A stretch of DNA of 64,000 bases, taken from Chloroflexota bacterium. GTDB lineage: Bacteria > Chloroflexota > UBA6077 > JACCZL01. The stretch covers positions 1 through 64,000 of the forward strand of contig JADZEM010000219.1 of NCBI GenBank assembly GCA_020850535.1, given 5' to 3'. Position numbers and translations under genes: made by a program. Positions within the stretch are counted from its first letter, which is position 1. Every line of letters starts with the position of its first letter. The notes under the pieces are model-generated. The model did no database searches and was not told the DNA's origin. It saw only the letters and a list, made by a program, of their open reading frames with translations. Shown one piece after another: positions 4,289 to 30,450 of the stretch.

Positions 4289-5233
4289 ATGGCTCAGGCC
4301 CGACCAGAACGGGCAGCCCCGACCACCGCCGACGCGGCCGGCGCGCGGCGCATCTCGCTCGCGCGTCGTGAGGCGCTCTACGGGTACGCCTTTATCTCGC
4401 CGTGGATCTTCGGGATGCTCGCGTTCACGGCCGGGCCGATCCTGGCCGTCTTCTACCTCTCCCTCACCGAGTACCCGATCCTCTCCGAGCCGACCTTCGT
4501 CGGCACGCGCAACTACGAGCGCATCTTCACCGACGACCCGCAGTTCCTGACCTCGCTCGTCAACACCGTGGTCTACGTCGGCATCCGCGTGCCGCTGCAC
4601 CTGTCGCTGGCGTTCGCGCTGGCGCTGCTGCTCAACCGCGCCGTGCGGGGCATCGGCATCTTCCGCACGGCCATCTACCTGCCGTCGATGATCCCGATTG
4701 TCGCCATGTCGGTGATCTGGCGCATCCTGCTCGATCCGCGCATGGGATACGTCAACTACTTCGGCGGCATGCTCGGGCTGCCAGAGATCAACTGGCTGAC
4801 CAGCGAGGCCTGGGTCAAGCCGGTCGTCGTGTTCGTCTCGCTCTGGCACGTCGGCATCCCGATGATCATCTTTCTGGCCGGCCTGGGCGGCATCCCGGAC
4901 CAGTTGTACGAAGCCGCCGAGATCGACGGCGCTGGCGCCTGGGGCAAACTCTGGAACGTGACGGTGCCGCTGATGACGCCGGTGATCCTCTACAACGTCA
5001 TCATCGACATCATCAACAGCTTCCAGGTGTTCGCCTACGCGTTCATCCTGACGCGCGGCGGCCCGAACGACGCCACCCTCTTCTACGTCCTGTACATCTA
5101 CCGGCAGGCGTTCCAGTTCTTCCAGATGGGGTACGCGTCGGCGCTCTCGGCGATCCTGTTCGCGATCGTGCTGCTGTTGACCATCGTCGTGCTGCGCTCC
5201 TCGCGCAACTGGGTGCATTATGAGCGCATCTAG
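4289..5233 (+). CDS. Sugar ABC transporter permease (MalF/UgpA type)
   Basis: A 314-residue inner-membrane permease. It has six hydrophobic segments and the cytoplasmic EAA loop that contacts the ATPase (YEAAEIDGAGAWGKLWNV, about residues 208-225). A ribosome site CCAGGAGA precedes the ATG. It forms the transmembrane heterodimer with the product of the next gene, whose start overlaps its end by 14 bp. The substrate is set by the upstream binding protein, so probably a carbohydrate or sugar acid used by the flanking enolase-family enzymes. No ATPase is encoded nearby; CUT1-type systems often share one ATPase encoded elsewhere. Confidence 0.92.
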   Translation: MAQARPERAAPTTADAAGARRISLARREALYGYAFISPWIFGMLAFTAGPILAVFYLSLTEYPILSEPTFVGTRNYERIFTDDPQFLTSLVNTVVYVGIRVPLHLSLAFALALLLNRAVRGIGIFRTAIYLPSMIPIVAMSVIWRILLDPRMGYVNYFGGMLGLPEINWLTSEAWVKPVVVFVSLWHVGIPMIIFLAGLGGIPDQLYEAAEIDGAGAWGKLWNVTVPLMTPVILYNVIIDIINSFQVFAYAFILTRGGPNDATLFYVLYIYRQAFQFFQMGYASALSAILFAIVLLLTIVVLRSSRNWVHYERI

Positions 5234-29411: not shown

Positions 29412-29499
29412 TACGCCTGCGAGGGAGCGTACCATCCGTCCCGGAGGGTGTCAAGTGACGCGCTCAAGCGTCGGTGGGAATGTGTGAGCGTTCAGTTGT

Positions 29500-29563
29500 C
29501 AGTCATCAGTTGTCAGTGCTGAATGCCTCTCACCGATCGCTGACGACTGACAACTGATGACTG
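29500..29563. terminator. 18-bp inverted repeat after the riboswitch-controlled gene
   Basis: CAGTCATCAGTTGTCAGT (29500-29517) and its exact reverse complement (29546-29563) flank 28 bp. It begins 11 bp beyond the stop of the 82-residue protein gene (minus strand) and could end its transcript before the SorC gene. The arms also contain smaller direct repeats of CAGTTGTCAGT, so it may be a repeat-family member. Confidence 0.55.
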
Positions 29564-29573
29564 GCCACTCGTC

Positions 29574-29822
29574 TCAGTACTGGCGGTCGCCGGACGCCTC
29601 AACGGCCCAACGGCGGCGCTCCTCTGCCAACGGACGCCACTCTTCGGCGGCGCTCGTCGTGGTGAAGCGGGGGAACCAGCGCCCCTTGAGGCCGATGGTC
29701 GCGGTGGCAGGGCGCTCGACGGTCTTCGCAGCCGTTGACGTCGTCGTGTCGGCGTCATCCGACGTGAAACAGGCGCGGTCGAGACGGCGGTACCAGATAG
29801 CCTGGGCGGTTTCGCGATGCAT
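29574..29822 (-). CDS. 82-residue protein of unknown function under a c-di-AMP riboswitch
   Basis: A small soluble-looking protein with no signal peptide or membrane segment. The N-terminal helix (HRETAQAIWYRRLDRACF) is followed by a Thr/Asp/Ala-rich middle, a TIGLKGRWFPRFTTT segment, and a Trp/Arg/Glu-rich C-terminus (EEWRPLAEERRRWAVEA). I recognise no family. The ATG is preceded by GAGGAG about 10 bp upstream, and this ribosome site is enclosed in a hairpin directly after a ydaO-type riboswitch, which strongly supports it as a real regulated gene. Usual targets of this riboswitch are cell-wall hydrolases, potassium or osmolyte transporters; this product resembles none of them. Confidence 0.65.
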   Translation of the reverse strand: MHRETAQAIWYRRLDRACFTSDDADTTTSTAAKTVERPATATIGLKGRWFPRFTTTSAAEEWRPLAEERRRWAVEASGDRQY

Positions 29823-29824
29823 GG

Positions 29825-29857
29825 GCGCACGCTCCTCGTGATGTGGAGTGGGTGCGC
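29825..29857 (-). promoter_or_regulatory. Hairpin hiding the ribosome-binding site
   Basis: On the minus strand GCGCAC (29857-29852) pairs with GTGCGC (29830-29825), and CTCC (29848-29845) pairs with GGAG (29835-29832), which is part of the GAGGAG ribosome site. It lies between the riboswitch and the ATG, so ligand state could control translation. Seen directly as complementarity; the switching itself is inference. Confidence 0.65.
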
Positions 29858-29859
29858 TT

Positions 29860-30110
29860 CCTTCACTGGGCCTACGGGGTTAGCTGTCGGGTTCGGATCG
29901 GAAGCGTCGAGATCCTACGCGCCGGCGAGGCACGATTCACCCCAGGTCAAGACCTTGACGCGCGCATCAGGGGCTGATGCGCATCATCCACGCCGGCCGC
30001 GTTGCTCGGGCCAGTGCGGATTCGGGTCCCCCGCCCTGCCGCCCCTCGGGGCTGGCAAGCTCGGCCGGGTCGTTCTGGGAACTCGCTCCTTTCACATCCT
30101 CGGGTCGCAG
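29860..30110 (-). promoter_or_regulatory. Cyclic di-AMP riboswitch (ydaO/yuaA type)
   Basis: Read on the minus strand, the conserved blocks occur in the right order: GGGGGACCCGAA (about 30034-30022), GGGGTGAATC (about 29943-29934), GTAGGATC (about 29918-29911), then CCGAACCCGACAGCTAACC (about 29896-29878) and GTAGGC (29873-29868). These are the invariant parts of the ydaO aptamer, in particular the CGAACCCGnCAGCTAAC segment. A variable hairpin arm (GATGCGCATCAGCCCCTGATGCGCG region) lies between the first two blocks, as in the family. Boundaries are approximate. It precedes the 82-residue protein gene. In known cases, high c-di-AMP turns expression off. Confidence 0.88.
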
Positions 30111-30450
30111 GGTCTCTGAGGGTTGAGCCTCGCTGCGCGACGATGTGCGGAGAGGCGTTGGCGTGACCGGTGTGGTGAGGGCGTCAATTGCCCCCTGGTC
30201 CCATGCGCCAACAGACACCAACAGTATAGCAGTCGATTCCGGGGCCTCCCCGAACGCGCGTCTCGGACGCGCTACGAGAGACGAGCCGTCGCAAGAGGTA
30301 ACGCACGGACCGTGCCCCTGGGGGATCACCCACCTGGGTCGTTGCTGCTTGGGCCGTCGGGGGTGAGGTCAGCCTGGCCGGGACCGCCGCTGCTGCTGCG
30401 TCGGGGTGTACTAAAATCTCCTGCATGCTCGCCGGACAGCGCCGTTCAGC
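30111..30450. other. Spacer upstream of riboswitch and CoA transferase
   Basis: No gene seen. On the minus strand a TATACT box (30228-30223) lies about 110 bp before the aptamer and may be the riboswitch promoter's -10; no good -35 is seen. On the plus strand TAAAAT (30412-30417), 34 bp before the CoA transferase ATG, is a possible -10. The rest is unremarkable. Confidence 0.4.

Follow-up and report, generated by a model that had tools for sequence, protein, structure and literature searches.

Background

Among the characterised c-di-AMP riboswitches, that of kdp in B. thuringiensis turns expression OFF through termination (PMC6488665), as does that of rpfA in Streptomyces (PMC10117811). The riboswitch of nlpC in C. 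glutamicum is likely translational and was OFF by reporter, and pairing of a CTCC motif with GGAG of the ribosome site was suggested as its mechanism (PMC9960051). A 2024 review places ydaO among the riboswitches able to occlude the ribosome-binding site (RBS) upon ligand binding (PMC10907184). In the literature searched, a scope that left the founding 2013 paper outside, no c-di-AMP riboswitch was described as ON.

In this work a stretch of 64,000 nt from a Chloroflexota bacterium (contig JADZEM010000219.1, positions 1 to 64,000; the window) was analysed, in which a ydaO/yuaA aptamer with a ribosome-site hairpin had been predicted on the minus strand in front of a small gene.

The aptamer and its host genome

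A cmscan of the window matched the Rfam model RF00379 at full length (model positions 1-134) at 30076-29855 of the minus strand with 56.0 bits and an E-value of 2.7e-10, above the gathering threshold of 38 bits. This was the sole Rfam match above gathering within the 64 kb; when 1.2 kb was searched, the E-value was 5e-12. The conserved blocks are all kept, in agreement with the original prediction, and the modest score is explained by an insertion in the peripheral region. By its match to the model the element is a genuine c-di-AMP riboswitch, for which ligand binding is predicted. The aptamer and the candidate promoter element upstream of it are:

29855-30076, minus strand: c-di-AMP (ydaO/yuaA) riboswitch aptamer, RF00379, with a peripheral insertion of about 70 nt
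30223-30228, minus strand: candidate −10 element TATACT, from sequence, without a good −35

TATACT-like sequences are also present upstream of two other aptamers (L002 and L034); in the window this motif was missed by a promoter consensus scan.

The genome carries three c-di-AMP aptamers: that of the window, one preceding the gene of a 3D/SH3-domain protein (L001) and one preceding an MFS transporter gene (L002). It also encodes one DAC domain (PF02457, diadenylate cyclase; 140.7 bits). The other two genomes of the family have the MFS-associated aptamer only. The MFS-gene aptamers depart from the core consensus, with CCGAGCCCAAYGCTYACC in L002 and L034 and CCGAGCCCGACGCTGACC in L035 versus the usual CCGAACCCGTCAGCTAACC. 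Departing cores are thus common to three genera (L002, L034 and L035 from genomes G000, G002 and G001, respectively), and these aptamers may differ in the affinity or specificity of ligand binding.

A pseudoknot that shares bases with the ribosome-site hairpin

The loop immediately 5' of the CCGAACCC block can pair with the 3' tail in nearly every aptamer of the class, and the resulting pseudoknot has a median length of 8 bp including G-U pairs (64 loci). The corresponding pseudoknot of the window, which did not figure in the original prediction, and the hairpin over the ribosome site involve the following elements:

29900-29906, minus strand: 5' strand of the pseudoknot, CGCUUCC (loop), seven Watson-Crick pairs with 29861-29855
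29855-29861, minus strand: 3' strand of the pseudoknot, GGAAGCG, whose final GCG also opens the arm of the RBS hairpin (3-nt overlap)
29852-29857, minus strand: 5' arm of the ribosome-site hairpin, GCGCAC, paired with GUGCGC in the local fold
29845-29848, minus strand: inner arm CUCC, paired with GGAG of the Shine-Dalgarno site (29835-29832) in the local fold
29832-29837, minus strand: Shine-Dalgarno site GAGGAG, 9 nt 5' of the ATG, from sequence
29825-29830, minus strand: 3' arm GUGCGC between the Shine-Dalgarno site and the start codon, from the local fold; same position in L032

The GCG that ends the 3' pseudoknot strand also begins the hairpin arm GCGCAC, so the two helices compete for these bases if the pseudoknot reaches the length seen in the relatives; a shorter, 4-bp pseudoknot (GGAA/UUCC) is able to coexist with the full RBS stem. 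The predicted local fold returned the GCGCAC/GUGCGC and CUCC/GGAG pairing originally proposed around GAGGAG, and in it the hairpin covers the Shine-Dalgarno site and the spacer before the ATG at 29822. Its z-score was −1.4 and 17 of 200 shuffles folded equally well, so that the window alone is no proof of the hairpin.

A homologous locus, L032 (also numbered L076), was found in genome G008 (JAJPGT010000029.1, Centralia_MAG_106) from another family of the same order. Downstream of its aptamer (80 bits) comes GGAAGCGCAC...GUGCGCCAAUG, which is the stem of the window at an equal distance from the start codon; the locus keeps GGAAGCGCAC...GUGCGCC(A)AUG and shares with the window both this stem and the 7-bp pseudoknot. 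In these two loci the usual CUCUUUC/GARAGAG is replaced on both strands by CGCUUCC/GGAAGCG, and the survey of the class found this loop and tail in no other locus. The stretches enclosed by the arms are unrelated in sequence (about 20 versus 43 nt), and the 43-nt one contains an additional hairpin; the extra hairpin within the L032 stem is strong. The local fold of L032 had a z-score of −2.95, and none of 200 shuffles was as good.

Stems this long that join the tail to the region before the start codon arose in 2.5 % of the window shuffles and 1.8 % of the L032 shuffles, and one chance 6-bp stem among the approximately 50 non-direct loci surveyed would, by our estimate, be unsurprising. The weight therefore rests on conservation and not on the stem alone: that both arms are preserved although the sequence they enclose is unrelated speaks most strongly for a function of the predicted hairpin. 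Fifteen loci with the tail pattern were checked genome-wide, and only L076 (L032 itself), L083, L088 and L090 were c-di-AMP aptamers, the last three being without the RBS stem of the window. In the survey of 138 aptamers, tail/spacer stems of 4-5 bp at L177, L189 and other loci were rejected as too short in comparison with chance.

No intrinsic terminator was found after the aptamer in either the window or L032. A translational expression platform is likely in the window, since no terminator was found and L032 has kept the platform; the sequestration of the Shine-Dalgarno site is predicted by folding and is conserved there as well. The proposal that the switch may act on translation is thus supported as to the mode of control, while the novelty that it implied is reduced, because the nlpC riboswitch had been reported as likely translational (PMC9960051).

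Direction of switching

The best explanation as a whole, with a probability that falls a little short of even, is that the aptamer and the hairpin act together as an ON switch on the initiation of translation at the 82-aa ORF. In the absence of c-di-AMP, GCGCAC of the 3' tail would pair with GUGCGC between the Shine-Dalgarno site and the ATG and keep translation low. Binding of c-di-AMP would stabilise the aptamer and the pseudoknot, which would take the GCG of the tail and break the stem, and translation would go up. The ON direction is the weak step of this explanation and two loci, the window and L032, are few for such a model. That the switch of the window is ON can be proposed tentatively, and still more tentatively that a c-di-AMP riboswitch turning translation ON via three shared bases exists in at least two families of the order.

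In 36 terminator-type relatives the tail showed more complementarity to the loop and 3' arm of the terminator than shuffled tails did (mean z −1.19), with p<=0.05 in 39 % of these loci. The tail would therefore be antiterminator-like in the relatives and free without ligand, ligand leading to termination (OFF); by the same logic, since ligand frees the terminator there, it would free the RBS in the window (ON).

The calculated folding energies modestly favour the ON direction. With the tail blocked as in the pseudoknot, the cost of opening the RBS decreased from 11.8 to 9.8 and from 14.5 to 9.3 kcal/mol in the window, and from 10.6 to 8.3 and from 11.3 to 10.1 kcal/mol in L032, so that the sign agrees in all four comparisons and the size is modest. 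The mean accessibility of the Shine-Dalgarno site under the same block was inconsistent (for the window 0.29 to 0.43 in one comparison and 0.28 to 0.23 in the other, for L032 a drop), as the CUCC/GGAG pairing persists along with other pairs. The stem probability in L032 was 0.91 in the unconstrained fold and 0.02 with the aptamer held apart and a longer coding sequence.

A translational OFF switch appears doubtful, yet it has to be weighed most seriously among the alternatives. The ligand-bound aptamer, with the short GGAA/UUCC pseudoknot, would then stack on the RBS hairpin and stabilise it, and the free RNA would misfold, with the 5' arm of the hairpin engaged in other pairing, and leave the RBS open, or else c-di-AMP would expose CUCC to block GGAG, as suggested for nlpC of C. 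glutamicum. Such a pseudoknot of 4 bp is fully compatible with the whole stem (stem pairs at 0.99-1.0), but pseudoknots of the class typically comprise 7-8 bp, which would consume the GCG of the stem. Precedent also speaks for OFF, as the characterised c-di-AMP riboswitches in the literature searched all repress (PMC9960051, PMC6488665) and the nlpC riboswitch, likely translational, has a proposed mechanism that likewise involves CTCC/GGAG. Against it, the RBS stem is already formed in the unconstrained leader, with pair probabilities of 0.94-0.96, and hence no open free state is predicted.

If the ON reading is true, this would be a natural ON version in which some genes are induced, not repressed, at high c-di-AMP, and one aptamer would have been rewired by shifting a few bases between the pseudoknot and the ribosome site. 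An OFF switch would make the locus one more case of translational control by c-di-AMP beyond the Actinobacteria, its target being an orphan.

The 82-aa ORF and its surroundings

The region downstream of the hairpin contains:

29574-29822, minus strand: 82-aa ORF, orphan, presumed target; best of six frames, Shine-Dalgarno site well spaced
29492-29569, no strand assigned: heptamer-repeat element that follows the 82-aa ORF; it has inverted arms and is dispersed, with 39 near matches genome-wide

The coding signal of the ORF is weak to moderate: its codon score was 14.2, real segments having a mean of 46 and wrong frames of −48, and a score as low was obtained for 10.8 % of real segments and one as high for 7.2 % of wrong frames. 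An alternative 117-aa frame (29513-29866) was rejected on its codon score of −81. No homologue of the 82-aa protein was detected in the two same-family genomes or in all 16 genomes of the order, and searches of a 61-genome sample of relatives, 84,980 species genomes, viral contigs and plasmids returned only the protein itself at E<=0.001. Seven matches in the relatives with E-values of 0.0015-0.007 were attributed to chance; they lie in unrelated places and several contain stops. No match above chance was obtained in Pfam, NCBIfam, PHROGs or PDB, and the product is, as first described, without a recognised family. Modelling of the single sequence with AlphaFold gave two helices with a pLDDT of 64 and a pTM of 0.25, a model that carries no usable information. 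The product of L032, in turn, has 145 aa and is a member of a new domain family that does not include the 82-aa protein; a relation as a diverged or truncated member, suggested by the W/R-rich N-terminus and a 'PRFTT' likeness, was rejected (hhalign probability 0.1 %, no BLASTP alignment).

With neither homologue nor family, the suggestion that the product is a new effector of c-di-AMP signalling found no support, and the frame, whose conservation downstream of the aptamer had been set as a test, is not conserved in the family or the order. As a conjecture, a soluble protein acting in osmotic or envelope stress would be compatible with the regulon.

It is unlikely that the riboswitch is real and the ORF a remnant or spurious frame, the true target having been lost or being located further downstream (the SorC-type regulator and the solute-binding protein). 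The absence of homologues in all searches, the intermediate codon score and the repeat that comes after the ORF would agree with such a history, but the frame is the best-scoring of six, its Shine-Dalgarno site and ATG are well placed in the switch hairpin and the layout of L032 matches. In favour of this reading, the neighbouring SorC-type gene is likewise unconserved in the family: neither of the two family genomes has an ortholog, and synteny gave no information there. Against it, that gene is separated from the ORF by more than 200 nt, past the repeat, and has a candidate −35 element of its own (TTGACA, 29454-29449). The repeat is of the (CTGACNA)n heptamer type, had no near matches in the control and yields spurious weak microRNA matches in Rfam.

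It is very improbable that the element is functionless, a decayed aptamer or a likeness due to chance, since the long insertion and a score below that of most relatives (up to 112 bits) are outweighed by the E-value of 2.7e-10, the complete conserved blocks and a 7-bp pseudoknot with both sides replaced in common with L032.

Other genes behind c-di-AMP riboswitches

The L032 product contains an uncharacterised all-helical domain of about 100 aa (AlphaFold pLDDT 86), for which Foldseek gave no PDB fold match at E<=0.001; the L032 protein has no Pfam or NCBIfam match. The domain forms the C-terminal part of riboswitch-controlled MFS proteins in the family of the window, stands alone behind a c-di-AMP riboswitch in G008 and G022, and in G003, G009 and G013 stands alone next to a permease-like gene with no riboswitch detected. 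It is present in 12 of the 301 genomes of the phylum sample, including the following loci:

G008, C90, 55235-55669: L032/L092
G000, C63, 9788-10147
G002, C104, 29020-29379
G001, C446, 2951-3313
G022, C70, 4169-4492
G003, G009 and G013: L102-L104

The association of this domain with the riboswitch is a better lead for a new member of the c-di-AMP regulon than the 82-aa ORF.

Small PII-type receptor-like proteins (PstA/DarA-like by eye) are encoded behind c-di-AMP riboswitches at L018, L058, L072, L073 and L027, which, if so, would mean feedback on the c-di-AMP receptor itself. Trehalose-phosphate-synthase-, glycosyltransferase- and GH57-like genes, also judged by eye, follow many riboswitches of the class (L014, L026, L036, L040, L043, L022, L041 and L074), pointing to control of compatible-solute synthesis.

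Comparison with known c-di-AMP riboswitches

The window resembles the ydaO/yuaA (kimA) class, RF00379, in the complete aptamer, the pseudoknot between loop and 3' tail and the cyclase domain in the genome. It differs in its platform, which is an RBS hairpin without a terminator, and in its target, an orphan small ORF in place of the transporter, osmolyte and cell-wall genes of the class. The terminating type, represented by B. subtilis ydaO and B. thuringiensis kdp, has an intrinsic terminator after the aptamer, where none was found in the window.

In the direct-type leaders, such as L026 and the first L083 aptamer before a transporter, the start codon is close and the terminator absent, as in the window. 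There, however, the Shine-Dalgarno site lies inside the pseudoknot strand and ligand should block it, whereas in the window a separate hairpin stands between. The L083 locus (Acidobacteria MAG nzgw76) carries two c-di-AMP riboswitches, at 365-549 and 4594-4732 of a 6-kb contig, with transporter-like genes downstream, and by its sequence the first of them is a simple translational OFF layout.

The riboswitch of C. glutamicum nlpC is similar to that of the window in having no canonical terminator, a control that is probably translational and a CTCC motif complementary to GGAG. It is OFF and precedes the gene of a wall peptidase, whereas in the window the pseudoknot strand shares bases with the RBS stem, which would point to ON.
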